A stretch of DNA of 64,000 nt, taken from assembly GCF_041242975.1 (NCBI RefSeq), contig NZ_CP162488.1, positions 3,400,001-3,464,000 of the forward strand, given 5' to 3'. How positions within the stretch are numbered: position 1 is the first letter of the stretch; the number at the start of each line of letters is the position of its first letter. Position numbers and translations under genes: made by a program. The stretch is from Xanthomonas sp. DAR 35659 (GTDB lineage Bacteria > Pseudomonadota > Gammaproteobacteria > Xanthomonadales > Xanthomonadaceae). The notes beneath the pieces were generated by a model. That model ran no database searches. It had not been told where the DNA came from and saw nothing but the letters and a program-made list of their open reading frames with translations. Below, in pieces: positions 41,982 through 63,143 of this stretch.

Positions 41982-43088
41982 ATGCACGCTGCACCGCAGC
42001 AAGTGCTATCCCGTACGCCATGGCATGCTGCCCCCTGTCCCCCGCACTGCGAGCGCCCCGTCATCAAAGGCAAGGCCACATCGCTCGATATCGCCTATCT
42101 GGCGGGCGTATCGCAGCCCACCGTCTCGCGCGCGCTGCGCGGCAGCCCGGCGGTCAACGAGCAGACCCGGCGCAAGATCCTGGCGATCGCCAACGAACTG
42201 AACTACAAGGTCGACAAGCACGCCTCCAGCCTGCGCCTGCGCAATGCCGGCACCCTGGCGCTGCTGTTCTTCGAGGACCCGACCACCGACGACTCGCTGA
42301 TCAACCCGTTCTTCCACTCGATGCTGGGTTCGATCACCCGCGCCTGCGCGCGCCACGGCTACGACCTGCTGGTCTCGTTCCAGCAGTTGTCGGACGACTG
42401 GCGTGCCGACTACGGCGACAGCCAGAAGGCCGACGGCCTGATCCTGCTCGGCTACGGCGACTACCTGCAGGCGCAGCAGCGGCTGCAGCACCTGGTCGAG
42501 CAAGGCACGCACTTCGTGCGCTGGGGCGCGGTGCTGGCCGAGCAGCCGGGCGTGTCGATCGGCAGCGACAACTTCCAGGGCGGGCACGACATCACCGCGC
42601 ACCTGCTGGCGCAGGGCTGCAGGCGCGTCGCCTTCCTCGGCGACGCCTCCAATCACTACCCGGAGTTCCTCGAACGCTATCGCGGCCACGCCGAGGCCCT
42701 GCGCACGGCCGGGTCGGCATTGGATCCAGGCCTGCAGGTCGATGCGATCACCACCGAACAGTCCGGCTACGAGGCGGCGCTGGCGTTGCTGGAGAGCGGC
42801 GAACGCTTCGACGCGATCTTCGCCGCCAGCGACCTGATCGCGATCGGCGCGCTGAAGGCGCTGCGCGAGCACGGCCTGCGCGTGCCCGAGGACGTGGCCC
42901 TGGCCGGCTTCGACGATATCCCCGTCGCCGCCTGTGTGGCGCCGGCGCTGTCCACCGTGCAGCAGGACACCAAGCTGGCCGGTGCGGTGCTGGTGGAAAC
43001 CCTGCTGGCGCAGATCGCCGGACAGCCGGTCAGCAGCCGCACCCTGCCGGTGACGCTGGCCCTGCGCGGCTCCTCGCTGCGCGGCTGA
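41982..43088 (+). CDS. LacI family transcriptional regulator
   Basis: 368 aa from the ATG at 41982. The real start is uncertain: an upstream ATG (41931) and a downstream in-frame GTG (42003) also precede the conserved region. The LacI helix-turn-helix TSLDIAYLAGVSQPTVSRALRGSPAVNEQTRRKIL is followed by NELNYKVDKHASSLR (minor-groove hinge) and a periplasmic-binding-protein-like sugar domain to the end (DGLILLGYGDY, GGHDITAHLLAQGCRRVAFLGD, FDAIFAASDLIAIGALKALREHGLRVPEDVALAGFDDI). Diverges from thrS. It is the only LacI-type gene in the window and so a candidate regulator of the maltodextrin genes downstream. Confidence 0.9.
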   Translation: MHAAPQQVLSRTPWHAAPCPPHCERPVIKGKATSLDIAYLAGVSQPTVSRALRGSPAVNEQTRRKILAIANELNYKVDKHASSLRLRNAGTLALLFFEDPTTDDSLINPFFHSMLGSITRACARHGYDLLVSFQQLSDDWRADYGDSQKADGLILLGYGDYLQAQQRLQHLVEQGTHFVRWGAVLAEQPGVSIGSDNFQGGHDITAHLLAQGCRRVAFLGDASNHYPEFLERYRGHAEALRTAGSALDPGLQVDAITTEQSGYEAALALLESGERFDAIFAASDLIAIGALKALREHGLRVPEDVALAGFDDIPVAACVAPALSTVQQDTKLAGAVLVETLLAQIAGQPVSSRTLPVTLALRGSSLRG

Positions 43089-45650: not shown

Positions 45651-45753
45651 GCGACTCTGCGCGGCCTCGGCCCTCCGTCGGGACGAACCGGGCCGTCCAC
45701 TACTCCAGCTTCGGAAACCGTCGGGACTGAAGTCCCTCCTACAGCGCACCGCG
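45651..45753. repeat. Degenerate REP-like sequence
   Basis: TGTAGAAGCGACTCTG near 45643 and CGGGACTGAAGTCCCTCCTACAG (ending 45744) look like decayed arms of the same family as the perfect element 30 bp downstream. Confidence 0.5.
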
Positions 45754-45771
45754 CCGATGCTCGGAGATCCC

Positions 45772-45839
45772 TGTAGGAGCGGCTTCAGCCGCGACAGGCG
45801 CTACGGAGAACGCCTGTCGCGGCTGAAGCCGCTCCTACA
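45772..45839. repeat. REP-type perfect inverted repeat
   Basis: Two perfect 29-bp arms beginning TGTAGGAGCGGCTTCAGCCG (45772-45800 and 45811-45839, inverted) around a 10-base loop. It lies between two converging genes and could serve as a bidirectional terminator or mRNA stabiliser. A second member is at 57788-57858. This family is widespread in Xanthomonas and Stenotrophomonas intergenic DNA. Confidence 0.9.
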
Positions 45840-45859
45840 AAAAGCGATCAACGCAGGCG

Positions 45860-47539
45860 CTAGTGCGGCGGTTCCACGCCATCCTTGGCGGTCATCAACC
45901 ACCCCAGCCTGGCGCGCAGGTCCGGGCGCACGATCGGCGCGTCGGACAGGAACACGCGCACGCCATGCGCCGGCACCTCGGCCCGCAACACGTCCGCGAC
46001 CTCGATCGCGCTGCCGTCGAAGCCGTCGTGCCAGATACCGGGCTGCAGGTAGCGGCGCACTTCCAGTGTCTTCGCCGTGTCGCCCTTGTTGAGCAGCACC
46101 AGCGCGGTCTGGGTCGTGCCGGCGTGCTGGTACACGCGGTAGAACACCGCCTCGTCGCCGGACAGGCGCAGGTTGAGCTGCAGCCCGCGCTGCAGCGCCG
46201 GCGTGCGCTGGCGCAACTGCGCGATGCGCTGCAACGGCGCGAAGATCGGACTCTGCGGCGCGGCATCCACCCGCTCCTGGCCGAAGTAGTTGCGGTTGCC
46301 GGCATGCTCGGCGCGACCCCGCATGAAGCCGGTCTCCGAGCCGTAGTAGAGCACCGGAATGCCGCGCGCGGTGAACAGCCAGTTGTGCGCATCGATGAAA
46401 CCGGCGTCGCTGGCGTCCAGCCGTGCCATGTCGTGGTTGTCGTAGAAGGTCATCAGTTCGTACGGATTGGCGTACGGACCGCGCTCCAGGAACAGCGGCG
46501 CCTGCAGCGTCTCGAACCCGCGCTGTTCGTGTCCGAACACCGCCGCCAGCCCCTGTTTCAGCGGGAAATCCAGCACGCTGACCCCGGCGTTGCGCGCCCA
46601 GGTATGCCCGGCGATCTTGCGCGCGTCGTAGTCGAAGGCCTCGCCGAACATGAACATGCCCGGGCGCTGCGCGCGGATGCGGCGTACGAACTCGTGCCAG
46701 AAGCTGTCGGGCATCCAGCCGATGGTGTCGATGCGGAATGCGTCGGCGCCCTGCCCCAGCCACTGCGAGTACGCGCCGACCAGGTACTCCATCACCGCCG
46801 GATTGCGCTCGTTGAAATCGGACAGTTCGGCCAGATTGCCGCCGGTGTTGTAGAACGCGTGCAGCGGGTTGTGCGCCGGGTCCAGCTTGGACGGCGGCAG
46901 GTTCTGGTGGTCGGCGATCAGCGTGCCGTCGCGGTCGAACACCTGCCCGAACATCGGCTGCCGCTTGGGCATGGTCCAGGCCGGCGAGCCGTGGTTGCCG
47001 ACGATGTCCAGCACCACCTTGAGCTGTTGCGCATGCATCGCCTGGGTGAAGCCGGCGAAATCCAGGCCCGGACTGGGCAGGTGTTCGTCCAGCTTGTAGA
47101 AATTGACGCCCCAGTAGCCGTGGTAGCCGGTCTTGCCGCGATCGCTGAGGTTGCTGCCCCAACTGATCGGCTTGCCGCCGGTGAACGCTTCGTCCGGATT
47201 GTCGACGATCGGCGTGATCCACACGGCGCCGAAGCCCAGGCCGCGGATGTAGCCGGCATTGTCGACCACGCCCTTGAAGTCGCCGCCGAGGTAGCCGATG
47301 TTGTCGCTCTCGCCCGGCGGCGCCGGCAGCGGGATATCGAAGGTGCGATGCGCGCCGCCCTGGTCGCGTTGGTCGTTGCCGGGGTCGCCGTTGACGAAGC
47401 GGTCGGTGACGACGAAATACACCGCCTCGCTGGCGAACGGCTCCAGCGTGCCGTAGTACTCGGCGGTGGTCTGCGCGCGCGCCGCCGGCGCCGCCGCGCC
47501 CAGCAACGCCAGCGCGAGCAGCGAGATCCGATACGTCAT
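45860..47539 (-). CDS. Secreted GH13 alpha-amylase/cyclomaltodextrinase-like enzyme
   Basis: 559 aa. A signal peptide (1-22, ending AARAQ) exports it. The GH13 barrel has region I VVLDIVGNHGSP (about 178), region II GADAFRIDTIGW (catalytic Asp, about 265), region III MFMFGEAFD (catalytic Glu, about 300) and region IV YDNHDMAR (third acid, about 365). A C-terminal beta domain follows. The aromatic N-terminal region YFVVTDRFVNGDPGND, with the Ca-binding-like Asp/Asn cluster, resembles CGTase and maltogenic amylase relatives. It would cut maltodextrins or starch in the periplasm. The ATG overlaps the MFS gene stop; last gene of the operon starting at the glucoamylase-like gene. Confidence 0.9.
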   Translation of the reverse strand: MTYRISLLALALLGAAAPAARAQTTAEYYGTLEPFASEAVYFVVTDRFVNGDPGNDQRDQGGAHRTFDIPLPAPPGESDNIGYLGGDFKGVVDNAGYIRGLGFGAVWITPIVDNPDEAFTGGKPISWGSNLSDRGKTGYHGYWGVNFYKLDEHLPSPGLDFAGFTQAMHAQQLKVVLDIVGNHGSPAWTMPKRQPMFGQVFDRDGTLIADHQNLPPSKLDPAHNPLHAFYNTGGNLAELSDFNERNPAVMEYLVGAYSQWLGQGADAFRIDTIGWMPDSFWHEFVRRIRAQRPGMFMFGEAFDYDARKIAGHTWARNAGVSVLDFPLKQGLAAVFGHEQRGFETLQAPLFLERGPYANPYELMTFYDNHDMARLDASDAGFIDAHNWLFTARGIPVLYYGSETGFMRGRAEHAGNRNYFGQERVDAAPQSPIFAPLQRIAQLRQRTPALQRGLQLNLRLSGDEAVFYRVYQHAGTTQTALVLLNKGDTAKTLEVRRYLQPGIWHDGFDGSAIEVADVLRAEVPAHGVRVFLSDAPIVRPDLRARLGWLMTAKDGVEPPH

Positions 47540-49026
47540 TGCCTTGCTCCCGGTTCGGCCGGAACCCGCAGCACGCACAGCGCCGCCAGCAACAGGCTGG
47601 CGCCGCCGACGCCCAGCGCGTACAGCGGCTTGCCGTCCAGCCAGTGCCTGAGCACGAAGCCCAGCACGCTGACCGCGACCAGCTGCGGGATCACGATGAA
47701 GAAATTGAAGATGCCCATGTACACGCCCATCTTCGCCGCCGGCACGCTGTCCGACAGCAGGGCGTACGGCAGCGACAGGATCGACGCCCAGGCGAAGCCC
47801 ACCCCCAGCATCGACAGCAGCAGCCAGCGCGGGTCGCCGATCCACAGGAACGACAGCAAGCCGGCCGCGCCCAGGCACAGGTTGATCATGTGGCTGACGC
47901 GCAGGCCCAGCGCCCGCACCAGCAGCGGAATGCAGATCGCCGCCAGCGCCGCGAACCCGTTGTAGGCACCGAACAGCACGCCGACCCAGTTGGCGCCGTC
48001 GTTGTAGGCCGCCGAGCCGGTGTCGGTGGCGCCGTAGTGCGTCTGCGTCACCGCCGCGGTGGTGTAGATCCACATCGCGAACAGCGCGAACCAGGAGAAG
48101 AACTGCACCCAGGCCAGGCGCCGCATCGCCAGCGGCATCGCCTGCACGTCGCGCATGATCGTGGCCAGCATGTGCCCGGGCCGCAGCCGCGGCGCCACCC
48201 ATTGCAACAGCCCATAGGCCGCAAACAGGCCGGCCAGCACGTACAGCATGCGGTCGCCGCCGCTCCAGGCGATCGCCGCCGCGCCGGCCGCGCCGAGCGC
48301 CAGCCAGATCGCCGCGGCGGCATCCGCGCGCGGCAGCGCCGCTGCGTCGGCGTCATGCGACGGCGGCGCGTCGTCGAAGCCGTGCAAGGTTTCCGGCGGA
48401 TACTCGCGCGTGCGCAGCACGGTCCAGCCGATCGACAGGAACAGCACCGCGCCACCCAGGTAGAAGGCGTAGCGCACCGTGTCCGGCACATGCTTCGGCG
48501 CGGCGGTGTTGCTCACGCCCCATTGCGCCAGCAACCACGGCAGCAGGCTCGCCACCACCGCGCCCACGCCGATGAAGAAGCTCTGCATCGCGTAGCCGGT
48601 CGCGCGCTGGCGCTGCGGCAACTGGTCGCCGACGAAGGCACGGAAGGGCTCCATCGAAATGTTGATCGAGGCGTCCAGGATCCACAGCGTGCCGGCGGCC
48701 ACCCACAACGCGGGCGAGTTCGGCATCACCAGCAGCGCCAGCGTGGTGAACAAGGCACCGACCATGAAATACGGGCGGCGCCGGCCGAAGCGGTTCCAGG
48801 TGCGGTCGGACAGGTAGCCGACGATCGGTTGCACGATCAGCCCGGTCAGCGGCGCGGCGATCCACAGCCCCGGCACCTGCTCCATGTCCGCGCCCAGGGT
48901 CTGGAAGATGCGGCTGGCGTTGGCGTTCTGCAGCGCGAAACCGAACTGGATGCCGAGGAAGCCGAAGCACATGTTCCAGATCTGCCAGAACGACAGCGCC
49001 GGCTTGGCGCGCGGCACCGCGCTCAT
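47536..49026 (-). CDS. MFS sugar transporter (GPH/SLC45-like, maltose type)
   Basis: 496 aa. A twelve-helix major facilitator with the motif GYLSDRTWNRFGRRRPYFMVGA between helices 2 and 3 (about 66-87). FGFLGIQFGFALQNANASRIFQTLGA near the N-terminus is typical of the proton-sugar symporter group often annotated as sucrose/maltose transporter in Xanthomonas maltodextrin loci. Likely imports maltose or short maltodextrins across the inner membrane. Starts and stops overlap its neighbours by four bases on both sides. Confidence 0.88.
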   Translation of the reverse strand: MSAVPRAKPALSFWQIWNMCFGFLGIQFGFALQNANASRIFQTLGADMEQVPGLWIAAPLTGLIVQPIVGYLSDRTWNRFGRRRPYFMVGALFTTLALLVMPNSPALWVAAGTLWILDASINISMEPFRAFVGDQLPQRQRATGYAMQSFFIGVGAVVASLLPWLLAQWGVSNTAAPKHVPDTVRYAFYLGGAVLFLSIGWTVLRTREYPPETLHGFDDAPPSHDADAAALPRADAAAAIWLALGAAGAAAIAWSGGDRMLYVLAGLFAAYGLLQWVAPRLRPGHMLATIMRDVQAMPLAMRRLAWVQFFSWFALFAMWIYTTAAVTQTHYGATDTGSAAYNDGANWVGVLFGAYNGFAALAAICIPLLVRALGLRVSHMINLCLGAAGLLSFLWIGDPRWLLLSMLGVGFAWASILSLPYALLSDSVPAAKMGVYMGIFNFFIVIPQLVAVSVLGFVLRHWLDGKPLYALGVGGASLLLAALCVLRVPAEPGARQ

Positions 49027-51224
49027 CGGCGCACCTGCGCGGTCGCGGCCGGCGCGATCAGCAGCGCGGCGACGGCGGCATCGTTGACCACGCCATCGGC
49101 GCCGCCCTGGCCGCCGGTGTAGCGCGCGAAGTGCTGCAGTGCGCTCATGTTGGCCGCCGGCGCCAACCGGATGCGGCAGGCCTGCCCGGCCTTCAGCGCG
49201 AACACGGCGGCGGTGGACTCCTGTTCGCCGACGCTGTGCGGCATCACCACCGGCATCCGTTGCGGTGCGGCATCGCCGCATTGCAGCTGCAGTTGCTTCA
49301 CCGCGGCGGTGACGCCGGTGTTGATCGGACCATGTGCGTTGGCGTAGCGCAGGCTCAACCGGTAGTCGCCGTCGTGCGGAGCGGTCCAACGCCAGTCGTC
49401 GTCTCCGGCGAGGCGGACCACATCACCGATGCAGACGCTGGGGCTGTGCAGCGATTCCCAATGGGCATCGCGACGGGTCAGGCTCAGGCATTGCACCTGC
49501 TCGCGCAGCGGCAGTCGCGTGCCATCCGCCGCGCCCGGACGACGCTGGCCATCGACATACAGCACCGTGCCGGCGGGAGCGGCCACGCGCCAGCCCTGTG
49601 CGTCGCGTTCGACGCGTGGAGCGACCGGTGCCGACGGCGCGAACGCCTCGGCGGAGGTGAGCAGCGGCACCGGCGTACTTCCGGTCGCGCGGCCGACCAA
49701 TTGCACCGTGGTCACACCAGCCGCGTTGCGCGTATCGCCGGCCACCAGGAGATCGCCCTGCAACCGCGCAGGCCGCCGCAGCACGATGCGCCGGTCGTGC
49801 AGTTGCAGCGCGATCTCCTGGCGGTCGCCGAACAGCATCGGCACCAGGCTGGCCGGCAACTTGGGCGCCACGCGGCCATCCTCCTCCACGCCGAACACGC
49901 CTTCGATCACCATCGCCAGGTAGCCCGCCACCGACCACAGCTGCCGTGGCGAATTGACCACCGGGCCGCTGAGCGGACCATCGTCCACGTGCGCGGCCTG
50001 GCTCAGGAACTCGTAGTTCTCCATGTTCGATCCCGCAAGCGCCGCGCCGCGCATCAACGACTGCACCTCGAAGGCGATCCGCGCGCTGTCGTCGGTGTGC
50101 CGCGCCGCGCGCAGCGCATAGGCGCTGACGAACGGCCAGATCGCGCGGTTGTGGTAGATCGGCACGTCCCGCTGCTGCGGCCACACCACCGGGCTGCCGG
50201 CCTCGACTGCCGGATAGCGCGCCAATGCCTGGCGCGCGCGCGCGCGCGGCAGCACGTCGGCCAGCACCGCCAGCGACAGCCCGAGCAGATCATAGCTTTC
50301 GTAGGCCACCGGATGCGCGGCGCTGCCGATGTAGCTGACATAGGTGCCGCGGTCCTCGCGCCAGAAGCGCTGCGCGATCGCCTGCTTGAGCGCATCGGCC
50401 CAGCCGGCATAGCGCGCCGCGCGGGTGGCGTCGCCCTGCTCGCGCGCCAGCCGTTCGCCCAGGCGCAGCGCCTGGTAATGCAGCACGTTGGTGGACAGTG
50501 CGAACGACTCGGCGATGAAGCGCACGTCGTCGCGGGTCCAGGCCGGATAGGTCTGTTCGCGCCAGTCCAGGAACGAGGTCTCGCCGCGGTACAAGCCGAT
50601 GCGCGGGTCGAACGCGAACGCGCGGTCCTGCGCCAGGGTCGCATCGAGCGCGGCGCGGGTGTCGGCGGCGAACGCCGCGTCGTCGAGCAGGTGCCGCGCG
50701 GCCAGGAACCAGACCACGCGGTCGCTGCTCACCGGCCAGCTGCCGCCGGAGCCGGTGTCCTGCGCCACGAACAGGCCCGGCAGCGCGTCGGGACCGCGCA
50801 TCGCCGACAGCTTGAAGTGAAGCGAGCGCCGCGTGCGCTGCGGATCGAGCCGTGCCAGCGCCAGATCGGCCGCATAGCTGACGTCGCGGGTCCACACGTA
50901 GGGCCAGCGCTCGCCGGTCTGGTAGCAGTCGCATGGCAGCGGCTTGCCGTGGTCGAAGGCGGGATCGCGGATCGCGTCGACCTGGTCGTCGCGCAGCTCC
51001 TGCTGCGCCAGCGCGAACAGCGCATCGAACAGCGGGCTGGCGGTCTCGCTGCGCAGCGGTTGCGGCGCCAGCGTGCGCTTGCCCTGCGTCGAGCTCAGCA
51101 CGAAGCCGCCATCGGCGGCGGCCGCGGCGTGCGCGGTCTGGCCGCGCCATTGCAAAGACGCCTGCCACGCAGGCGCCGACACCGCGGCACCCAAGGTGGC
51201 GGCCAAGCAGATCATCTTCAGCAT
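49023..51224 (-). CDS. Secreted six-hairpin glycosidase, glucoamylase-like
   Basis: 733 aa from MLKMICLAATL, which gives a signal peptide (about 1-20); the longer ATG at 51392 would read through the operator. The central domain has the alpha/alpha six-barrel look of GH15/GH63-type enzymes: YVWTRDVSYAADLAL, SDRVVWFLAARHLLDD, YPAWTRDDVRFIAESFALSTNVLHYQALRLGERL, YHNRAIWPFVSAYALRAA, NMENYEFLSQ and NSPRQLWSVAGYLAMV. A C-terminal beta-rich part (about 520-733) may bind carbohydrate. Probable exo-acting alpha-glucan hydrolase in the periplasm; precise specificity not determined. First gene of a three-gene operon. Confidence 0.8.
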   Translation of the reverse strand: MLKMICLAATLGAAVSAPAWQASLQWRGQTAHAAAAADGGFVLSSTQGKRTLAPQPLRSETASPLFDALFALAQQELRDDQVDAIRDPAFDHGKPLPCDCYQTGERWPYVWTRDVSYAADLALARLDPQRTRRSLHFKLSAMRGPDALPGLFVAQDTGSGGSWPVSSDRVVWFLAARHLLDDAAFAADTRAALDATLAQDRAFAFDPRIGLYRGETSFLDWREQTYPAWTRDDVRFIAESFALSTNVLHYQALRLGERLAREQGDATRAARYAGWADALKQAIAQRFWREDRGTYVSYIGSAAHPVAYESYDLLGLSLAVLADVLPRARARQALARYPAVEAGSPVVWPQQRDVPIYHNRAIWPFVSAYALRAARHTDDSARIAFEVQSLMRGAALAGSNMENYEFLSQAAHVDDGPLSGPVVNSPRQLWSVAGYLAMVIEGVFGVEEDGRVAPKLPASLVPMLFGDRQEIALQLHDRRIVLRRPARLQGDLLVAGDTRNAAGVTTVQLVGRATGSTPVPLLTSAEAFAPSAPVAPRVERDAQGWRVAAPAGTVLYVDGQRRPGAADGTRLPLREQVQCLSLTRRDAHWESLHSPSVCIGDVVRLAGDDDWRWTAPHDGDYRLSLRYANAHGPINTGVTAAVKQLQLQCGDAAPQRMPVVMPHSVGEQESTAAVFALKAGQACRIRLAPAANMSALQHFARYTGGQGGADGVVNDAAVAALLIAPAATAQVRR

Positions 51225-51378
51225 CGAAGCGGCGGACCGGCTCGCGCCCGTCGGCCTCCCTCCCTCTTTGCCTGCATTGTGGGTTCGCGGTGCCGGCAGG
51301 CCGGCGCCACGGTCGCGGCCTCTTCTTCGAGAGGCGCTGCGGACATGGTAGACGCGCCGCATCGCACCGCGTGCATCT

Positions 51379-51391
51379 GCATACGTATTCA
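51379..51391. promoter_or_regulatory. Shared maltodextrin operator, site 1 (divergent promoter region)
   Basis: GCATACGTATTCA, part of CTGCATACGTATTCAT, containing the symmetric core ATACGTAT. It lies 155 bp before the glucoamylase-like gene and 75 bp before the GH97 gene, in the only divergent spacer of the locus. The same 12-bp core occurs at 53960-53971 and 59588-59599, each in front of a maltodextrin gene. Confidence 0.75.
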
Positions 51392-51465
51392 TTGCGTGGG
51401 CTGCGGCCGCGCCGCGGCGCCTCGCTATAGTCGCCGCACCTGCAACGGCCGCCTTGGGAGGGGAG

Positions 51466-53574
51466 ATGCCGCAGCTTCATGCCATGCCACTCGTGCGCTG
51501 GACGCATCGCCTGCCGCTGCTGCTCGCCGCCGCGCTGTTGTGCACCGCACCGCTGCTGCGCGCCGAACCGAAGACCGTGGCCAGTGTGGAATCGCCCGGC
51601 AAGGTGCTGCAGGTCGCGCTGCAGCTGGATGGCGGCAAGCCGAGCTACCGCGTGCAGCGCCTGGGCGACACCGTGATCGGCGAATCCCGGCTCGGCTTCC
51701 AGTTGCGCGACGGACGCCTGGACCGCGACCTGGACGTGCTGGCGCAGGCGACCCGCAGCGTGGACGAGACCTGGGAACAACCCTGGGGCGAGCGCCGCTT
51801 CGTGCGCAACCACTACAACGAACTGCGCGTGGATCTGGGCGAGCGCAGCGGCCAGCGCCGCCGCTTCGCCGTGGTGTTCCGGGTCTACGACGACGGCCTG
51901 GGCTTTCGCTACAGCTTCCCCCAGCAGCCAGGCCTGCGCGAGGCGATCATCGACGAGGAACTGACCGAGTTCGATATCGCGCCGGAGGCGACCGCCTGGT
52001 GGATCCCGGCCGGCGAGCCGATCCACTACGAATACCTGTACCGGCAGACGCCGTTGAACCAGGTCGCGCTGGCGCACACGCCGATCACCTTGCGCAGCCG
52101 CGACGGCCTGCACATCGCCCTGCACGAAGCCGCCCTGGTCGACTACGCCGGGATGTGGCTGCGCCGCGGCGACGGCCAGCGCCTGCATGCGCAGCTGTCG
52201 TCCTCGGCGCAAGGCTGGAAGGTCAAGCGCCGCCTGCCGTTCGAGACGCCGTGGCGCACCGTGCAGGTCGCCGACCATGCCGGCGGCTTGGTGGACTCGG
52301 ACCTGATCCTCAACCTCAACGAACCCAACGCGCTCGGCGACGTGAGTTGGGTGCACCCGGCCAAGTACGTGGGCGTGTGGTGGTCGATGCACCTGAACCA
52401 GCAGACCTGGGCGACCGGCCCCAAGCACGGCGCGACCACCGCCAACACCCGCCGCTACATCGACTTCGCCGCCGCGCACGGCTTCCGCGGCGTGCTGGTG
52501 GAAGGCTGGAATCCCGGCTGGAACGGCGAGTGGTTCGGCCATGGCGACAGCTTCGACTTCACCCGGCCGACCCCGGATTTCGACATCGCGCAACTCTCCG
52601 CCTACGCGGCCGGGAAAGGCGTGCACCTGATCGGCCACCACGAAACCGGCTGCGCGGTGCAGCATTACGAGGACCAGCTCGACGCCGCCCTGGATCTGTA
52701 CGCGCGGCTGGGCGTGGACACGTTCAAGACCGGCTACGTCTGCGACGACGGCCAGGTGGACCGGCGCAATCCGGCCGGCGGGCCGCTGTGGCGCGAATGG
52801 CACGATGGCCAGTTCATGGCCCAGCATCACCTCAAGGTGGTGCGCGAAGCGGCGGCGCGGCACCTGTCGGTCAACGCGCACGAGCCGATCAAGGACACCG
52901 GCCTGCGTCGCACCTATCCCAACTGGCTCTCGCGCGAAGGCGCGCGCGGCATGGAGTACAACGCCTGGGGCCAGCCGCCGAACCCGCCCGAGCACGAGGT
53001 CAACCTGGTGTTCACCCGCATGCTGGCCGGCCCGATGGACTACACGCCCGGCATCCTCAGCCTCGAGGGCCGCGACGGCCAGCCGATCCCCAGCACGCTG
53101 GCGCGGCAGCTGGCGCTGTACGTGACGATCTACAGCCCGATCCAGATGGCCGCGGACCTGCCCGAGCACTACCTGCAGCACCGCGACGCGTTCCGCTTCA
53201 TCGAGGACGTGGCGGTGGACTGGGACGACAGCCGCGTACTCGACGGCGAGGTCGGCGACTACGTCACCATCGTGCGCAAGGACCGTCACAGCCGCGACTG
53301 GTACCTGGGCAGCATCACCGACGAACACGGCCGCGTGCTGCCGGTGGCCCTGTCGTTCCTGGAGCCGGGCGTGCGCTACCGCGCCGAGATCTACCGCGAC
53401 GGGGATGCGGCGGACTACCGTAGCAACCCGTTCGCCTTCGTGCGCGAGCAGCGCGAGGTCACCAGCGCCGACCGGCTGCAGCTGAAGCTGGCGCCGGGCG
53501 GCGGCCAGGCGATCCGGTTCGTGCCGCTGGACGCCGCGGCGGACGCCCACGGCAGCACGCCGATGCGCCCCTGA
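51466..53574 (+). CDS. GH97 alpha-glucosidase (SusB-like)
   Basis: 702 aa from the ATG 51466; a later ATG (51484) is also possible. Signal peptide to about residue 30 (LLRAEP). GH97 layout: N-terminal beta-sandwich (about 40-290), catalytic barrel (about 300-590), C-terminal beta domain. The two carboxylates fit the inverting GH97a subgroup: Glu in VNAHEPIK and Glu in RGMEYNAWG are exactly 24 residues apart, as are Glu508 and Glu532 of Bacteroides SusB. Would release glucose from maltodextrins in the periplasm. Transcribed away from the glucoamylase operon. Confidence 0.93.
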   Translation: MPQLHAMPLVRWTHRLPLLLAAALLCTAPLLRAEPKTVASVESPGKVLQVALQLDGGKPSYRVQRLGDTVIGESRLGFQLRDGRLDRDLDVLAQATRSVDETWEQPWGERRFVRNHYNELRVDLGERSGQRRRFAVVFRVYDDGLGFRYSFPQQPGLREAIIDEELTEFDIAPEATAWWIPAGEPIHYEYLYRQTPLNQVALAHTPITLRSRDGLHIALHEAALVDYAGMWLRRGDGQRLHAQLSSSAQGWKVKRRLPFETPWRTVQVADHAGGLVDSDLILNLNEPNALGDVSWVHPAKYVGVWWSMHLNQQTWATGPKHGATTANTRRYIDFAAAHGFRGVLVEGWNPGWNGEWFGHGDSFDFTRPTPDFDIAQLSAYAAGKGVHLIGHHETGCAVQHYEDQLDAALDLYARLGVDTFKTGYVCDDGQVDRRNPAGGPLWREWHDGQFMAQHHLKVVREAAARHLSVNAHEPIKDTGLRRTYPNWLSREGARGMEYNAWGQPPNPPEHEVNLVFTRMLAGPMDYTPGILSLEGRDGQPIPSTLARQLALYVTIYSPIQMAADLPEHYLQHRDAFRFIEDVAVDWDDSRVLDGEVGDYVTIVRKDRHSRDWYLGSITDEHGRVLPVALSFLEPGVRYRAEIYRDGDAADYRSNPFAFVREQREVTSADRLQLKLAPGGGQAIRFVPLDAAADAHGSTPMRP

Positions 53575-53927
53575 TGTTCAAAGCGCCAGTCGCCCGCCGG
53601 CGCTTACCGCCGCCGGCGCGTGCTCGCGTATCGGGCGACGCGCTGGCCGATGCCTGAAGTGGCCCAACTCGTTCATCGCTGCAAGGGCACATCGCCGTGC
53701 CGCGTCCGCGCCGCCCTGCCGGCGAAGCCGCCATACGTCTCTGGCCGCCTCCTCCAAGTCCGTCCTGCCCACATCCGCGCGCATGCGGCGGACACGGCGG
53801 GACGCCCGAGTGTTGACCATCGCCATGGGATGGCCCCGTCGCCGCCACGCCGACGATGCGCTGCATCCCAAGCGCCGACGAGTTCCCAGTGCACGCTGCG
53901 CACATCGCCGCCTGCGCCAGTACGCCC
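53575..53927. other. Gene-free interval after the GH97 gene
   Basis: About 350 bp of GC-rich sequence with no supported gene, repeat or terminator. Open frames on both strands are spill-over of the neighbouring codon bias. Confidence 0.4.
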
Positions 53928-53943
53928 TTGGAATCGATTCCAA
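53928..53943. promoter_or_regulatory. Perfect 16-bp palindrome upstream of the TonB receptor
   Basis: TTGGAATCGATTCCAA, 16 bp centre to the left of the shared operator and about 163-178 bp before the receptor ATG. Its size and symmetry suit a second regulator binding site. I do not find it at the other maltodextrin promoters. Confidence 0.55.
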
Positions 53944-53958
53944 TGCGATGAAAACCAG

Positions 53959-53972
53959 TGAATACGTATGCA
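53959..53972. promoter_or_regulatory. Shared maltodextrin operator, site 2 (TonB receptor)
   Basis: TGAATACGTATGCA on the plus strand, the reverse complement of the 51379 and 59588 sites, extending to GTGAATACGTATGCAG. Located 134 bp before the receptor ATG. Confidence 0.75.
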
Positions 53973-54105
53973 GCCCGCGTTCGCGGCGGACCGCCGTGTC
54001 TACCATACGTCGCAGTCGCGTCACCTGGAAACGCTGCGCGATCTCTATATCCGGCCGACGCGCCGGACCGAAAATTTGCACGACAACATTGCCTGGGAGG
54101 GGAAA

Positions 54106-56868
54106 ATGTTGAACCACAAGCGCAATGCGCTGACCCTGGCGCTGGCCATCGCCATGACGCCGATGCTGGCCGCCGCACAATCCGACACGCAGACCGGCGG
54201 CACCGCCGAGCCGGCGCAGAATCCAGTCACCGAACTGGACAAGGTCCAGGTGACCGGCATCCGTCGCGGCATCGAGAACGCGATCGCGATCAAGCAGGAT
54301 TCCACGTCCATCGTCGAGGCGATCTCGGCCGAGGACATCGGCAAGCTGCCGGACGTGAGCATCGCCGAATCGCTGGGGCGCCTGCCCGGCCTGGCCGCGC
54401 AGCGCGTGGCCGGTCGTGCCCAGGTGATCAGCGTGCGCGGCCTGTCGCCCGACTTCGCCACCACCCTGCTCAACGGCCGCGAGGTGGTCAGCACCGGCGA
54501 CAACCGCAGCGTCGAGTTCGACCAGTATCCGTCGGAACTGGTCAATGGCGTGACCGTGTACAAGACGCCCGACGCCGGCCTGGTCGGCCAGGGCCTGTCG
54601 GGCACCATCGACATGCAGACCGTGCGTCCTCTGAGCTTCCCTGATCGGGTGATCGCGGTGAGCGGCCGCCTGCAGAAGAGCTCGCTGGGCAAGGCCGCCG
54701 ACGTCGATGCCTACGGCAACCGTTTCAGCGCCAGCTACATCGACCAGTTCCTCGACAAGACCCTGGGCATCTCGATCGGCTACGCCCACAGCGACATGCC
54801 GATCCAGGAAAACCAGGTCGGCCTGTACGAGCCGTGGACCACGCAGAACACGGACAGCGGCAGCCGTCCCGGCGTGGCCGCCGGCACCTATTTCTCCGAC
54901 GGCATCAAGGCGCTGCGCCGTACCGGCAACAACAAGCGTGACGGCGTGATGGCGACCGTGCAGTTCCGCCCGTCCAGCACTTGGACCAGCACCTTCGACG
55001 CGTTCCACACCGAAGCCGAGCAGATCGACACTGCCAATCAGTTCGAGGTCAATCTCAGCAACTACAACGGCGGCTACACGCCCGGCCTGTTGATCACCAA
55101 CCCGCAGGTCGACGCCAGCGGCAGCTTCACCGGCGGCACCGCCAGCGGCGTGTATCCGCTGGTGCGCGGCATGTACAACAAGCGCAAGGACAAGATCGAC
55201 GCGTTCGGCTGGAACAACGAATTCAACCTCGGCAGCGTGCGCCTGGTCGCCGACCTGAACTACTCCAAGGCCACCCGCAAGGAGTTGAACCTGGAGAACA
55301 ACCTGCAACTGGTGCCGATGCCGCAGCTGGATACCGTCGGCCTGGCGATCAAGCCCAACGACTTCTCGCAGATCACGCCCGGCCGCGACTATTCCGATCC
55401 GAACAACCTGTTCCTGACCAACACCATCTACGGCTCCGGCTACGGCAAGGTGCCGGAAGTCGAGGACCGCCTGAAGGGCGGCCGCCTGGCGGCGACGCTG
55501 CCGGCGCCGCAGGCGCTGACCTGGTTCTCGGACATCGACGTGGGCGTGAACTACGCCGACCGCCGCAAGCAGAAGGCCCAGGCCGAAGGCAACATCCTGC
55601 TCGGCGCGCAGGGCGACACCAGCATCGCCAGCGACCTGCAGTACGACCCGGTCAATCTGGGCTTCGCCGGCATCGGCACCATCCCGGCCTGGAATGTGCC
55701 GGCGGCGGTCTCGCGCTACATGACCTTCGATCCGGTCACCAACCTGGACTATCTGATCCCGAAATCGTGGACCGTGCAGGAGAAGATCACCACGGCCTGG
55801 GTCCGCGCCAACATCAACACTGACATCGGCGAGGTCGGCGTGCGCGGCAACATCGGCGTGCAGTTGCAGCGCGCCGATCAGAGCTCGCAGTCCAGCTACT
55901 TCGACCAATCCCGTCCCGCCGGCCAGAACGTGCTGCCGATCGATGCCGGCAAGACCTACAACGACTGGCTGCCGAGCCTCAACCTGGCCTTCCTGTTTCC
56001 TCACCAGCAGACCCTGCGCTTCGCCGCGGCCAAGCAAGTAGCGCGTCCGCGCGTGGACCAGATGCGCGCCGGCCTGGATTTCGGCGTCGACACCTCCACC
56101 GGCAAACCCGGCGGCAGCGGCGGCAACCCCCTGCTCGACCCGTGGCGTGCCAACGCGCTGGACCTGTCGTACGAGAAGTACTTCGGCGAGAAGGCGTACG
56201 TGGCCGCCGCGGTGTTCTACAAGGACCTGAAGAGCTACATCTATACGCAGTCGCGCGACGATTACGATTTCTCCGCCCTGCTCGCCAGCTATGTGCGCCC
56301 GCCCAGCATGACCGTGCCGGTGCAGACCACCGGCACCTTCTCCTCGCCGCAGAACGGCAAGGGCGGTACCCTGCGCGGCCTGGAGTTGACCGCGTCGCTG
56401 CCGCTGGACATGGTCACCGACAGCCTGCGCGGCTTCGGCATCCAGGCCAGCGCCACGTTCAACGACAGCGACATCAAGATCGTCGATCCGGACAGCGTCT
56501 CCAGCGTCGGCTCGGCGCCGATCGACCTGCCGGGCCTGTCCAAGCGCGTGTACAACTTCACCGCTTACTACGAGCGCAACGGCTTCGAGGCGCGCGTCAG
56601 CCAGCGTCGGCGCTCGGACTTCATCGGCGAGATCGGCAACTTCAACGGCAACCGCACCTTGCGTTACGTGGTCGGTGAGAACGTGACCGACGCGCAGCTC
56701 AGCTACACCTTCGCCGACGGCAGTACCCTGGCCGGACTGAGCCTGCTATTGCAGGCCAGCAACCTGACCAACTCGCCCTACCGCACCTACGCCGGCACCA
56801 AGGACCGCCCGCTGGAATACGTCGAATGGGGCCGCACCTACATGCTCGGGGTGAACTACAAATTCTAG
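54106..56868 (+). CDS. TonB-dependent receptor, maltodextrin type
   Basis: 920 aa. Signal peptide (1-23), TonB-box region with TELDKVQVTGIRRG (about 45), plug domain (about 60-190; EDIGKLPDVSIAESLGRLPGLAAQRV, VISVRGLSPDFATTLLNGREVVS) and a 22-strand barrel ending in the aromatic C-terminus WGRTYMLGVNYKF. The plug sequence is of the TonB-Xanth-Caul group, whose members include Caulobacter MalA for maltodextrin. It would take maltodextrins through the outer membrane. A strong GGGAGGGG ribosome binding site precedes the ATG. Monocistronic, with a terminator. Confidence 0.93.
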   Translation: MLNHKRNALTLALAIAMTPMLAAAQSDTQTGGTAEPAQNPVTELDKVQVTGIRRGIENAIAIKQDSTSIVEAISAEDIGKLPDVSIAESLGRLPGLAAQRVAGRAQVISVRGLSPDFATTLLNGREVVSTGDNRSVEFDQYPSELVNGVTVYKTPDAGLVGQGLSGTIDMQTVRPLSFPDRVIAVSGRLQKSSLGKAADVDAYGNRFSASYIDQFLDKTLGISIGYAHSDMPIQENQVGLYEPWTTQNTDSGSRPGVAAGTYFSDGIKALRRTGNNKRDGVMATVQFRPSSTWTSTFDAFHTEAEQIDTANQFEVNLSNYNGGYTPGLLITNPQVDASGSFTGGTASGVYPLVRGMYNKRKDKIDAFGWNNEFNLGSVRLVADLNYSKATRKELNLENNLQLVPMPQLDTVGLAIKPNDFSQITPGRDYSDPNNLFLTNTIYGSGYGKVPEVEDRLKGGRLAATLPAPQALTWFSDIDVGVNYADRRKQKAQAEGNILLGAQGDTSIASDLQYDPVNLGFAGIGTIPAWNVPAAVSRYMTFDPVTNLDYLIPKSWTVQEKITTAWVRANINTDIGEVGVRGNIGVQLQRADQSSQSSYFDQSRPAGQNVLPIDAGKTYNDWLPSLNLAFLFPHQQTLRFAAAKQVARPRVDQMRAGLDFGVDTSTGKPGGSGGNPLLDPWRANALDLSYEKYFGEKAYVAAAVFYKDLKSYIYTQSRDDYDFSALLASYVRPPSMTVPVQTTGTFSSPQNGKGGTLRGLELTASLPLDMVTDSLRGFGIQASATFNDSDIKIVDPDSVSSVGSAPIDLPGLSKRVYNFTAYYERNGFEARVSQRRRSDFIGEIGNFNGNRTLRYVVGENVTDAQLSYTFADGSTLAGLSLLLQASNLTNSPYRTYAGTKDRPLEYVEWGRTYMLGVNYKF

Positions 56869-56893
56869 TTCCCGCTCCGCATGCCGAAACGAG

Positions 56894-56923
56894 CCCGCCG
56901 ACGCCCTGTCGGCGGGTTTTTTT
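56894..56923 (+). terminator. Rho-independent terminator of the TonB receptor gene
   Basis: A perfect 9-bp stem CCCGCCGAC/GTCGGCGGG with a 5-base loop followed by seven T, 26 bp after the stop. Confidence 0.93.
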
Positions 56924-57787
56924 ATGGTTCGGATCGCCCGCGAGCAGCGTTGGGAACGCATTGGTGCGGCAACGGATGGACCGTACGCGCCAGACACGAT
57001 CTGCGCAGTTTTTATGGAAGTCCGCACGCGACATTGGAATCGCATCCCTGCGGTAGCGGGTCTGGGCGCCGCAAGCGTCCGGCAGATCCGCACCAGCCAT
57101 GACTCGGAAGCTTGCACGCGGTGCTGTGACAGCATCCGCGGCAAAGCAGGACTGGACCCCGCAGGCATCCGGCATGATCTGCGCCAAGTTCGCGGCGTTG
57201 ATTACCCAGGCAGTGATCGCGGAATCGCTTTCACCAGCGCCTGGCAGTACTCGCCGCCGCGGGTTGCCGAACCCAAGCGGTCACTGCCAGGTCGCCGATC
57301 GATGACCCACGCGAACAAAAGCGTGAACTGGCTGCCTGCATGATGTGAATGTCGAAAGCGATGACGACCTGGCATGGCCGGCGCCTCCGGCGCGCTCGCG
57401 CAGATGTGCTGCGCAAGGATTAGCACCTGGAGCATGCGCCAGCAGGAGAAGCCCAAAAAACCTCGGCATCGCAGAGACTTCCATGCCGAACCTCCCGCCG
57501 GCGCGCAAACCAAGTCGCCTTTGGGCAGGACCATGCCGCCGCGCGCCCACGCGCACCCATCGGATAACTGCTCCGCATCGCACACGGCCACGCGCATCGG
57601 AGTGGCGGAGTGCTTACGGCCCCAATTTGGCACCGGGCCGGACACCAAAGGATCGACGAGCTACAGCGCCTTCGCTGCTGGCAGCCGGCAGCCGGCAGCC
57701 GGCAGCGAGTCAAACTGCGGCGATGACTCGACTACAGTGCGCCTCTGACAACTACTTTCGCCACAATCGAGTCAGATGCAGTTTGCC
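56924..57787. other. Gene-free 860-bp region with degenerate repeats
   Basis: No gene is supported on either strand. The first 270 bp hold three degenerate repeats (listed separately). 57679-57706 contains nearly four tandem copies of GGCAGCC. Base composition is lower in GC than the coding neighbours. A possible remnant of a lost gene or of an inserted element; I could not recognise which. Confidence 0.5.
56958..57190. repeat. Three degenerate ~55-bp repeats spaced 84-90 bp
   Basis: Copies at 56958-57010, 57042-57097 and 57132-57190 share the pattern GCAT..., GCGGCAA..G, TGGACC, GC.TCCGGCA.GATCTGCGCCA. Copies two and three are about 70-75% alike by eye. Read on the minus strand they give a repeated peptide-like pattern (PDACG.Q), but the frame is not a convincing gene. 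Confidence 0.6.
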
Positions 57788-57858
57788 CTGTAGGAGCGGC
57801 TTTAGCCGCGACGAGGCGTTCCCTGTAAAGCCCGTCGCGGCTAAAGCCGCTCCTACAG
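57788..57858. repeat. REP-type inverted repeat, second copy
   Basis: Perfect 26-bp arms starting CTGTAGGAGCGGCTTTAGCC (57788-57813 and 57833-57858 inverted) around a 19-base loop. Same family as 45772-45839. It follows the alpha-glucosidase gene by 26 bp. Confidence 0.9.
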
Positions 57859-57884
57859 AACACTTTCCGAGGCGACTAGGTGCC

Positions 57885-59495
57885 CTACACGCGCTCCAGG
57901 CACACCATCGCATAGCCGGGCAAACGCACGCCGCCGTCGACACTGCCCAACTCCACACCCGGAACCGCCACCGCGCGCCAGTCGCCGTCGGGCAACGCGG
58001 CCTCGGCGAGGTGCGCGGAAAGATTGAACGCCAACAGCAAGGTCTGCTGCGCCTGCCGGCGCACGAACATGAGCACCGGCTCCGCGGTCTCGACGAACGC
58101 GATGTCGCCTTCGCGCAGGGCCACGTGCCGCTTGCGCCACGCCTGGAACTGCTGGAACGCGCTCAACACCGACTGCGGATCGGCCAACTGCGCGGCCACC
58201 GACAGCGCGCGATGCGCTGGCGACACCGGCAACCATGGCTCGCCCTGGGTGAAGCCGGCATGCGCGCTGGCGTCCCACGGCATCGGCGTGCGGCAGCCGT
58301 CGCGGCCCTTGAAGCTTGGCCAGAAGGCGATGCCGTACGGATCCTGCAAGGCCTCGAACGGCACCTCGGCCTCGCCCAGGCCCAGTTCCTCGCCCTGGTA
58401 GATGCACACCGACCCGCGCAGCGAGCACAGCATCGCGGTCAGCAGGCGCGCGAACGCCGGCGTTTCCGCGCCCCTGCCCCAGCGCGTCACCGCACGCTGC
58501 ACGTCGTGATTGGAGATCGCCCAGCACGGCCAGCCCTCGGTCATCGCCACCTCCAGGCGCGATACCGTCTCGCGGATGTAGGCCGCGCTGAAATCGTCGG
58601 TCAACAGCTCGAAGCTGTAGCCCATGTGCAGATGCCCCGCGCGTGTGTATTCGGCGGTGGTGGCGAGCGAATCCTCAGACGAGATCTCGCCCAGGCTCAC
58701 CGTCCCAGGATAGCGATCGAGCAGGCCGCGCAGCTTCTGCAGGAACGGCAGATTCTCCGCCTGCGTGTTGTTGTAGTAGTGATACTGGAACGCGTACGGA
58801 TTGTCAGGACTGAACCCCCGCCCGACACGCTTCTCCACCGGCTTGGGCGGATTGTCGCGCAGCAGCGGATCGTGGAAGCAGAAGTTGATCGCATCCAGCC
58901 GAAAGCCGTCCACCCCGCGCGCCAGCCAGAACTCGACGTTGTCCAGCGTCGCCTGCTGCACCTCGGGATGGTGGAAATTCAGATCCGGCTGCGACGCCAG
59001 GAAGTTGTGCAGATAGTACTGGCCGCGGCGCGGCTCCCACTGCCAGGCGACACCGCCGAAGATCGACATCCAGTTGTTCGGCGGCGTCCCATCCTCGCGC
59101 GCATCCGCCCACACATACCAATCGGCCTTGGGATTGTCGCGGCTTTCCCGGCTCTCCTTGAACCAGGCATGCTCCACCGAAGTGTGGCTGAGGACCTGAT
59201 CGATCATCACCTTCAGGCCCAGCGCATGCGCCTTGGCCAGCAGCCGATCGAAGTCGTCCATCGTGCCGAACAGCGGATCGACTTCGCGGTAATCGGCGAT
59301 GTCGTAGCCGAAATCGGCCATCGGCGATTTGAAGAACGGCGAGATCCAGATCGCATCCACGCCCAGCGCGGCGATGTAGTCCAGCTTCTGCACGATGCCC
59401 GGCAAATCGCCGACGCCATCGCCGTTCGCATCGAGAAAGCTGCGCGGGTAAACCTGATAGATGACGGCACCGCGCCACCATGGAGCCTGGGTCAT
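57885..59495 (-). CDS. Cytoplasmic GH13 alpha-glucosidase (XgtA-like)
   Basis: 536 aa, no signal peptide, starting MTQAPWWRGAVIYQVYPRSF. Very like the X. campestris transglucosylating alpha-glucosidase XgtA (538 aa). Catalytic regions: DQVLSHTS (region I, about 99), DGFRLDAINF (nucleophile Asp, about 200), SLGEISSED (acid/base Glu, about 271) and AISNHDVQRA (third Asp, about 328). Hydrolyses maltose and short alpha-glucosides to glucose inside the cell. Its promoter region carries the third shared operator. Transcribed toward the TonB receptor gene, with the repeat region between. Confidence 0.94.
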   Translation of the reverse strand: MTQAPWWRGAVIYQVYPRSFLDANGDGVGDLPGIVQKLDYIAALGVDAIWISPFFKSPMADFGYDIADYREVDPLFGTMDDFDRLLAKAHALGLKVMIDQVLSHTSVEHAWFKESRESRDNPKADWYVWADAREDGTPPNNWMSIFGGVAWQWEPRRGQYYLHNFLASQPDLNFHHPEVQQATLDNVEFWLARGVDGFRLDAINFCFHDPLLRDNPPKPVEKRVGRGFSPDNPYAFQYHYYNNTQAENLPFLQKLRGLLDRYPGTVSLGEISSEDSLATTAEYTRAGHLHMGYSFELLTDDFSAAYIRETVSRLEVAMTEGWPCWAISNHDVQRAVTRWGRGAETPAFARLLTAMLCSLRGSVCIYQGEELGLGEAEVPFEALQDPYGIAFWPSFKGRDGCRTPMPWDASAHAGFTQGEPWLPVSPAHRALSVAAQLADPQSVLSAFQQFQAWRKRHVALREGDIAFVETAEPVLMFVRRQAQQTLLLAFNLSAHLAEAALPDGDWRAVAVPGVELGSVDGGVRLPGYAMVCLERV

Positions 59496-59586
59496 GCAAC
59501 GCCCCCCTCGGGCAGAAATCGCGTGCGCAAGGGGCGCACGCAAAGCTGCGTTAGGTTAACGTCGGTACGCGCATTGACCAGATGCT

Positions 59587-59600
59587 TGCATACGTATTCA
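59587..59600. promoter_or_regulatory. Shared maltodextrin operator, site 3 (alpha-glucosidase)
   Basis: TGCATACGTATTCA, identical over 13 bases to the site at 51379-51391. It lies 92 bp before the alpha-glucosidase ATG and 117 bp after the virB4 stop. Confidence 0.75.
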
Positions 59601-59671
59601 GCAGTTTGCAGCCCCGACAGCAAGGCTGCCTTCCGCTTGGGCCATCGCGGCGCTGCCGCACCCACATGCAT

Positions 59672-59708
59672 CGAAGAAGGCGCCCATCGAAGAGCCGCCT
59701 TCTTCCAA
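59672..59708 (-). terminator. Terminator-like hairpin after virB4
   Basis: GAAGAAGGCG (59673-59682) pairs with CGCCTTCTTC (59697-59706) on a loop of 14 bases containing further pairing. It starts about ten bases after the virB4 stop. The minus-strand downstream flank lacks a clean T tract. Confidence 0.55.
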
Positions 59709-59716
59709 CGCTGCGG

Positions 59717-62188: not shown

Positions 62189-62359
62189 AGTGGGATGACG
62201 TTGAATCCATTTCCTGTTGCCAAGGCCCGGCTCGGACGAGTCGGGAACAGTCGAACAATACAAGCCTACGCGCTGGCTGAGCCAGTGCGCCGTGAAAACC
62301 AAACAACCCCATGCACGACACGCGTCGTGCATGGGGTCGAGGACATCCGCCAATCCCGG
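62189..62359 (-). other. 171-bp virB3-virB4 gap
   Basis: Unusually long for a virB operon, and it contains the hairpin at 62308-62337. No gene is supported. Confidence 0.6.
62308..62337 (-). terminator. Terminator-like hairpin between virB3 and virB4
   Basis: A perfect 13-bp stem (CCCCATGCACGAC/GTCGTGCATGGGG) with a 4-base loop. On the minus strand it is followed by TTGTTTGGTTTTC, a U-rich tail. Being inside the operon it would reduce transcription into virB4 or set virB1-3 versus virB4 stoichiometry. Confidence 0.75.
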
Positions 62360-62671
62360 TCAGCGCTTGGCGCCGGGCACTTCCTTGCGGTACTCGTTGG
62401 GAGAAAACACCCACATACCCGAGTAGCGCTGCAGGTTGCGCACGCGCATCCTGACCATCCAGCGCAACCCCAGCATCCTGAAGATCATCTCGTCCCGCTT
62501 GGTCATCTGCTGCATGATGAAAACGATCACCGGGATCAGCAGCAGGAACCAAAAATTGAAATAGATACTCAACAGGAAGCCGCCGCCCGCCCCGACGAAA
62601 AATGGGATGTAGGGCACCCCAAAGAACATTGGTGGCCGCGTGCAGCCGCGGAAGAGCACGTTCTTATGCAT
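62360..62671 (-). CDS. virB3: Type IV secretion protein VirB3
   Basis: 103 aa. Small inner-membrane protein with a conserved start (LFRGCTRPPMFFGVPYIPFF) and one long or two short hydrophobic stretches (about 18-55). It associates with VirB4. The ATG overlaps the virB2 stop by eight bases. Confidence 0.93.
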   Translation of the reverse strand: MHKNVLFRGCTRPPMFFGVPYIPFFVGAGGGFLLSIYFNFWFLLLIPVIVFIMQQMTKRDEMIFRMLGLRWMVRMRVRNLQRYSGMWVFSPNEYRKEVPGAKR

Positions 62672-63074
62672 ATTGCATGGCGTGCTGAACGAAATTGATG
62701 CCCGCGGTGCAAGCGGTCTGGCCGGTATCGCCGATCAGCATCTTGGCGAGCTGGCCGGCGGCGCCAATCAACACGCCACCAAGCAAGACCGGGGTGACTT
62801 CGGAAACGCGCTTGTGCGCGAACGCGATCTGGTAGCCAGCGAAGACGACGGCGATGGTGACAACGACAACCGATGCCATGTTGAGAATGTTGTTGGTCTT
62901 ACCCAGGAAGCCGCACACCTTGTCATTGGTTCCGGCATAGCCCCCGTCCCCGCCGGGGTTGGTGGCCATCGCCGCACCACAGGCCAGCACGGCCGCGGTG
63001 AAGAGAAGGGCTTGCAATGCGGCCTTGCCGACCACCTTGGCATTCCCGGCGACTTCATTTTTCTTGTGCATCAT
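62664..63074 (-). CDS. virB2: Type IV secretion major pilin VirB2
   Basis: 136 aa. Long signal region (to about 37, AAMATNPGG), then two hydrophobic helices (about 63-86 and 93-115) with the short loop AHKRVSEVTP between, the VirB2/TrbC pilin architecture. Three cysteines in the mature part (KVCGFLG, TACTAG). A C-terminal tail beyond the second helix (about 20 residues, INFVQHAMQYA) is typical of the Xanthomonas-type T4SS pilin. 69 bp after virB1. Confidence 0.92.
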   Translation of the reverse strand: MMHKKNEVAGNAKVVGKAALQALLFTAAVLACGAAMATNPGGDGGYAGTNDKVCGFLGKTNNILNMASVVVVTIAVVFAGYQIAFAHKRVSEVTPVLLGGVLIGAAGQLAKMLIGDTGQTACTAGINFVQHAMQYA

Positions 63075-63143
63075 GGCGTATCTCCTGATTTGGAACAGAG
63101 GGATGATCAGATACCATTTACATGGCAGGACTGCTGCAACCGG

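Follow-up and report, generated by a model that had tools for sequence, protein, structure and literature searches.

Two described loci are closest to the system analysed here. In Xanthomonas campestris, the receptor gene of the XCC2469 locus is induced by maltose (PMC1790865), and in Xanthomonas citri the XAC2595-XAC2602 cluster is induced by starch (PMC10714752). As far as the available parts of these papers describe them, both are resembled in gene content and order by a locus of Xanthomonas sp. DAR 35659, which lies in a 64,000-nucleotide stretch of contig NZ_CP162488.1 (the whole stretch analysed, hereafter the window) and carries genes for a LacI-type regulator, a GH13 protein, an MFS transporter, an unassigned glycosidase, a GH97 glycosidase, a TonB-dependent receptor and an XgtA-like glucosidase. 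The activity of the X. citri counterpart of the unassigned glycosidase is likewise left unassigned in the available text (PMC10714752). Whereas that text of the two papers gives no operator and calls or presumes the regulator a repressor, an operator, a regulon and an activator-type layout are proposed here. A literature search for a maltose-related LacI motif or activator in Xanthomonas or Stenotrophomonas found none, but it left subscription journals mostly uncovered, so that absence is not proven.

Judging from sequence comparison, a 14-bp element shared by the promoters of this locus is the target of the LacI-family product of the gene at 41982-43088, which would act mainly as an activator of a starch/maltodextrin regulon (probability roughly 0.7). 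The specificity of the site, the content of the regulon, the co-occurrence of site and regulator, the covariation of recognition helix and operator, and the asymmetry, orientation and locked -10 distance of the operator were established by computation.

An asymmetric operator at a locked distance from a predicted -10 element

The 12-bp core GCATACGTATTC occurs in the window at 51379-51390 (+), 53960-53971 (-) and 59588-59599 (+), the three positions given in an initial annotation made from the sequence alone. The conserved unit is 14 bp long, TGCATACGTATTCA, which reads TGAATACGTATGCA on the opposite strand. The operators and their proposed regulator are as follows.

51378..51391, minus strand: operator 1 (reads TGAATACGTATGCA on this strand), in the intergenic region of the divergent 49023 operon and GH97 gene
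53959..53972, plus strand: operator 2, upstream of the TonB receptor gene
59587..59600, minus strand: operator 3 (reads TGAATACGTATGCA on this strand), ahead of the XgtA-like gene
41982..43088, plus strand: LacI-family regulator (helix-turn-helix and sugar-binding domains; Pfam LacI and Peripla_BP_3), proposed to bind the operators from co-occurrence and helix/operator covariation

The distance from site to start codon is ~74 bp for the GH97 gene, 91 bp for the XgtA-like gene, 133 bp for the TonB receptor gene and 153 bp for the 49023 gene, in agreement with the 75-155 bp annotated initially. The operator core ATACGTAT has a central CG, and CG-centred palindromic operators are described as typical of the LacI family in the available text of PMC4052901; the 14-mer is nonetheless asymmetric in 222 of 230 copies and symmetric in eight, a count that covers 96 of the 129 site-bearing genomes of the family survey described below, the places in the other 33 being those among the matches listed. 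A simple symmetric operator was rejected on this count. The initial view of a ~14-bp LacI-family site thus stands for length and type, symmetry as the essence of the site is not borne out, and the symmetric-repressor reading fits less well.

Orientation and spacing were surveyed in 135 distinct sites from 33 genera, with target classes taken from tblastn matches to 14 reference proteins. Sites that agreed in genome and in the 50 bp downstream were merged, the set was restricted to TGAATACGT[AT]TGCA, so that symmetric sites lie outside it, and loci L004-L025 and L056-L075 lie outside both this count and the -10 alignment. With the site read as TGAATACGTATGCA, 125 of the 135 face a recognised gene. 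An alignment of 115 sites (121 before identical windows were merged) revealed a CTACCAT-like element from about position 43, counted from the first base of the operator. TANNNT starts at positions 42-44 in 87 of these 115 sites, while other three-position windows average 0.45 and never exceed 3. When position 45 is included, 116 of the 125 distinct sites that face a recognised gene have TANNNT, spread over 31 of 31 genera, versus none of the ten sites that face no such gene. By class, TANNNT at 42-44 was found for TonB receptors (44/45), MFS transporters (26/30), XgtA (13/16), XAC2598-like proteins (12/13), alpha-amylases (6/13), pullulanase (2/2), GH97 (2/2), SSF (1/1), isoamylase (0/2) and DeoR (0/1); ten more sites have it at 45, six of them before alpha-amylases.

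For receptor genes, taking one site per genus, the -10-like element lies at exactly 43 in 24 of 27 genera; in these 24 the spacer identity is 36%, versus 27% for shuffles, and the approximate distance to the start codon ranges from 68 to 226. A TTG at the canonical -35 distance is present in nine of the 116 locked sites, and a weak TTG at -33 in 21. With the first T of the predicted -10 taken as -12, the operator would span roughly -54 to -41 from the predicted start, ~28-31 bp ahead of the predicted -10. In the window, the following -10 elements are predicted.

51345..51350, minus strand: predicted -10 TACCAT of the minus-strand 49023 operon, position 42 from operator 1
51426..51431, plus strand: predicted -10 TATAGT of the GH97 gene, position 49, mirror direction
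54001..54006, plus strand: predicted -10 TACCAT of the TonB receptor gene, position 43
59553..59558, minus strand: predicted -10 TAACCT of the XgtA-like gene, position 43

No full sigma-70 consensus promoter was found in the three regions, a weak test given that shuffles also yield almost none. Among 80 named loci, of which 53 have a site, the lock is present in 62 of 79 sites, one of them in Ferrimonas balearica; these loci partly overlap the genomes of the family survey and are not fully independent of it, and some sites at locus ends are unscorable.

Activation or repression by the LacI-family protein

The combination of fixed spacing, fixed orientation and rare -35 elements is what an activator would leave. 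An operator upstream of the -35 region at a fixed distance would be expected for the activating mode of CcpA and Cra, and the operator lies so relative to the predicted start; overlap with the promoter core, expected of a local repressor and seen in the sux-like contrast below, was not found, since 116 of 125 forward sites have the operator about 28-31 bp before the predicted -10. The initial annotation held the site to fit a LacI-family repressor, and the orientation and the locked -10 distance appear to fit an activator better. In the proposed mechanism, the operator would be placed at about -54/-41, the TGCATA half pointing toward RNA polymerase and the TGAATA half lying upstream, at promoters with a CTACCAT-type -10 and rarely a canonical -35. 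This promoter type leads to the proposal that the bound regulator recruits or positions polymerase, which it would do at a fixed distance and direction when maltose or a malto-oligosaccharide is present. We infer here that the protein binds the element, that binding activates, that such a sugar is the effector and that TANNNT serves as the -10. Whether the proposal extends to the order as a whole we consider evenly poised: a dedicated, sugar-induced LacI-family activator would run the starch/maltodextrin regulon of Lysobacterales by one blueprint, with an asymmetric operator 27-30 bp before a CTACCAT-type -10, standing in for the -35 and oriented with TGCATA facing polymerase and TGAATA upstream, and with the asymmetry kept because the proximal half serves both regulator and polymerase.

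Several observations weigh against activation by one layout. Nine of the 125 forward sites lack the lock. In the mirror direction, TANNNT occurs at 48-50 for GH97 (10/15) and SSF (2/2), which is another spacing, and is absent there for XgtA (0/23), GH13x (0/18) and Sugar_tr (0/6); since the mirror spacing differs by class, a few targets follow another layout. The promoters compared are orthologous and of common ancestry, so that the genera are not independent. Regulators with the A-type recognition helix (SQATVSRVL) also use the standard site (L152, L153), which makes the helix/operator covariation described below one-sided. Most LacI-family sugar regulators release DNA on sugar binding, and induction through an activator therefore needs the opposite logic. 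The available parts of the papers on both Xanthomonas loci call or presume the regulator a repressor (PMC1790865, PMC10714752), and at the lev operon CcpA is described as repressing from upstream by blocking an activator (PMC3463425, available part).

These last points bear on the best-surviving alternative, which keeps the same protein and sites and has the protein sit at -54/-41 as a repressor without sugar, blocking or trapping polymerase or blocking another activator, until malto-oligosaccharide releases it. Family habit, the wording of both locus papers (PMC1790865, PMC10714752), the repressor role given for the paralogous SuxR in the available text (PMC1790865) and the upstream repression by CcpA at the lev operon (PMC3463425) speak for it, but it would have to accommodate a tight, oriented -10 lock over unrelated genes, the rarity of a canonical -35, an operator that does not overlap the -10 and the different geometry of sux-like operators; on balance we regard it as unlikely. 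In the available part of PMC3463425, CcpA, itself of the LacI family, activates from sites upstream of the -35 in a manner dependent on the helix face. Cra/FruR also activates some genes, and the proposed activator is likened to both by layout. CcpA and Cra/FruR are global and act in both modes, whereas the window regulator would be pathway-specific, and its operator has a set direction and a locked -10 distance at most of its targets.

SuxR of X. campestris is likewise a LacI-family protein in a locus with a TonB receptor, an MFS transporter and a GH13 protein, and is a repressor according to mutant data in the available text of PMC1790865, unlike the activator proposed here. In the genome of DAR 35659, a sux-like LacI protein, 41% identical to that of 41982-43088, has a sucrose-symporter-type MFS transporter, a TonB receptor and a GH13 protein as neighbours. 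The palindrome TACAATCGATTGCA is common to five of six sux-like loci (own genome and five relatives) and contains a -10-like TACAAT; we regard it as a candidate SuxR operator. It is present in L256 (7175) and in the relatives L258-L261, with two copies per locus in the latter four. Of 11 copies found with a TACAA-anchored pattern, nine keep TANNNT inside and none has one at 42-45 downstream; elsewhere, TANNNT lies at 27 in four, at 46 in two and at 43 in the mirror direction in one. As the search pattern began with TACAA, the figure of 9/11 is partly built in, and the unbiased observation is the 14-mer shared by 5/6 loci.

Annotation routinely treats LacI-family sugar regulators as repressors. 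If the protein is an activator with a fixed blueprint, starch-uptake regulation in Xanthomonas, Stenotrophomonas and their relatives must be given the opposite sign, and members of the regulon could be read from sequence as an operator with a -10 at 42-45. One genome would then offer a comparison pair, the proposed activator and a sux-type paralog. The X. campestris counterpart of this paralog represses, the operators of the pair differ in geometry, and the cause of a LacI-type protein becoming an activator would be directly testable.

Linking the operator to the regulator

The 41982-43088 protein matches PF00356 and PF13377 above cut-off, and solved LacI-family structures match it by sequence; its closest named relatives are from Xanthomonas and at most 94% identical. 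As annotated initially, its gene is the only LacI-type gene of the window, and the genome holds 13 LacI-family genes. In 198 genomes of the family, TGMATACGTATKCA is present in 129 and its reversed control in none, and a strong ortholog of the regulator (E at most 4.2e-106) is present in 142, with three further genomes showing a weak match near 1e-67. Ortholog and exact site occur together in 127 genomes, the ortholog without exact site in 15, the site without ortholog in two, and neither in 54. Fourteen of the 15 carry the one-base variant TGAATACGTTTGCA, and at the locus of the remaining one, G114 (85% complete), there are sites with one mismatch. The operator or its one-base variant is thus present in 141 of 142 genomes with a strong ortholog versus 3 of 56 without, the three being G024 (83% complete), G193 (81% complete) and G180, whose site is of the symmetric form. 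Because the genomes are related, Fisher values for this co-occurrence are not true probabilities. However, 12 genera (g1, g3, g4, g6, g9, g10, g17, g26, g32, g33, g46 and g51) mix genomes having both regulator and site with genomes having neither, suggesting that the two were lost or gained jointly and repeatedly. At the level of the order, TGAATACGTATGCA was found in 44 of 151 sampled genomes, with one control match.

The LacI gene directly adjoins the GH13 gene in 15 of 20 loci of relatives; among the other five, genes intervene in L076, L077, L082 and L087, and no such GH13 gene was found in L089. In 60 loci, 40 of them with flanks, the recognition helix was compared with the operator. SQPTVSRAL changes to SQATVSRVL in genera with the operator TGAATACGTTTGCA, and 18 of the 21 loci with SQATVSRVL or a close form have this variant in the vicinity of the LacI gene, versus none of 19 with SQPTVSRAL or SQSTVSRAL. 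G012 and G033, read as S-type, carry the TGAATACGTTTGCA word somewhere in the genome, and it was found in none of nine same-genus genomes.

Co-occurrence, adjacency and operator/helix covariation support the initial proposal of this gene as a candidate, and it very probably encodes the regulator of the shared operator. That a different regulator binds the operator, the LacI gene being only a passenger of the locus, seems very improbable: loss of the whole locus could remove sites and gene together, and a second palindrome (below) would imply another factor at the receptor promoter in some genera, but the ortholog is kept even far from dispersed sites (e.g. G022, G004), helix and operator covary, and the CG-centred form is LacI-like (PMC4052901, available part). 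Autoregulation, common though not universal in local LacI-family sugar repressors, was ruled out at the exact or one-mismatch level by the genome-wide site search, which placed no such site in the neighbourhood of the gene in DAR 35659.

The operator is also highly specific. In the window, strand-matches to GCATACGTATTC with at most two mismatches number seven (shuffle mean 1.74; 0 of 100 shuffles reach seven), and the sole place besides the three operators is 7936-7947. The whole genome (5,415,250 bases) holds three exact copies of TGMATACGTATKCA, all in the window, and none with one mismatch; the initial statement that the window has no other full copy thus extends to the genome, and the idea survived the search for random genomic copies that it had called for. 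With two mismatches, nine genome places match (reversed control: 11 within two mismatches), and as a set these are at chance level. A 12-14-bp word can recur in 64 kb by chance, but the shuffles, the count of three exact and no one-mismatch copies in 5.4 Mb and the 129/198 versus 0/198 of the reversed control rule this out for practical purposes.

Regulon members and locus context

In other genera, dispersed sites precede genes for alpha-amylases, pullulanase, isoamylase, Sugar_tr and SSF transporters, GH97 and XgtA-like proteins and TonB receptors; as exceptions, the L101 site stands before the gene of a DeoR-type regulator, and L132 has its symmetric site within a small open reading frame. 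In the own genome, a two-mismatch copy, TGAATACGTATGTG, stands before an alpha-amylase gene at 4410838 (L012) with TAGCAT at position 45, and other genera have the same layout. Since the two-mismatch set is at chance level, it is the operator/-10 arrangement that singles out this copy, and the alpha-amylase is probably a fourth regulon member with a degenerate operator. Hence the sharing of one operator by maltodextrin promoters held, while the initial list of three was incomplete. The X. citri alpha-amylase XAC0798, presumably the counterpart of this protein, is starch-induced according to the available text of PMC10714752.

Ferrimonas balearica belongs to another order. Its locus (L245) combines the same operator with a -10-like element at 44 and a LacI ortholog of 67% identity, which suggests transfer outside Lysobacterales.

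The remaining genes of the locus are as follows.

45860..47515 (start approximate, from the open reading frame), minus strand: GH13 gene, Alpha-amylase domain
47536..49110 (start approximate), minus strand: MFS sugar transporter, MFS_1
49023..51224, minus strand: weakly classified glycosidase, apparent counterpart of X. citri XAC2598, weak GDE_C and related matches
51466..53574, plus strand: GH97 glycosidase, Glyco_hydro_97
54106..56868, plus strand: TonB-dependent receptor, TIGR01782 and Pfam
57885..59495, minus strand: XgtA-like GH13 alpha-glucosidase, Alpha-amylase domain, named by analogy with the X. citri paper (PMC10714752, available part)

With a receptor, glycosidases, an inner-membrane transporter and a regulator, the locus has the composition of a TonB-receptor carbohydrate-utilisation (CUT) locus. 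The 49023-51224 protein matches GDE_C, Bac_rhamnosid6H and MGH1-like weakly, yet is conserved in starch loci. The LacI gene was initially placed 8-16 kb from the sites behind an unrelated iron cluster; most of that gap is the maltodextrin operon itself, and the unrelated insert, between the LacI and GH13 genes, measures ~2.8 kb (43088-45860) and carries a PepSY_TM protein. Inserts at this junction also occur in L076, L077 and L082, and none in L078-L081.

Beside operator 2 lies another element.

53929..53942, no strand assigned: second LacI-type palindrome TGGAATCGATTCCA, centre 30 bp upstream of the centre of operator 2

Compared as a possible operator copy, it differs from the operator in sequence. 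TGRAANCGNTTYCA stands at that place in 13 of 45 receptor sites from five genera (at 30 bp in 12, at 31 bp in one) and in none of 90 other sites; genome-wide enrichment of the motif was not found (seven places within one mismatch versus 20 for the reversed control). It is possibly the site of a second regulator, perhaps for catabolite control. An Rfam search of 51000-60000 gave no RNA element at the gathering threshold. The sequence directly after the locus (59717-63980) encodes a conjugation ATPase of the VirB4 type as well as a lytic transglycosylase domain, so that the locus borders a type IV secretion cluster.

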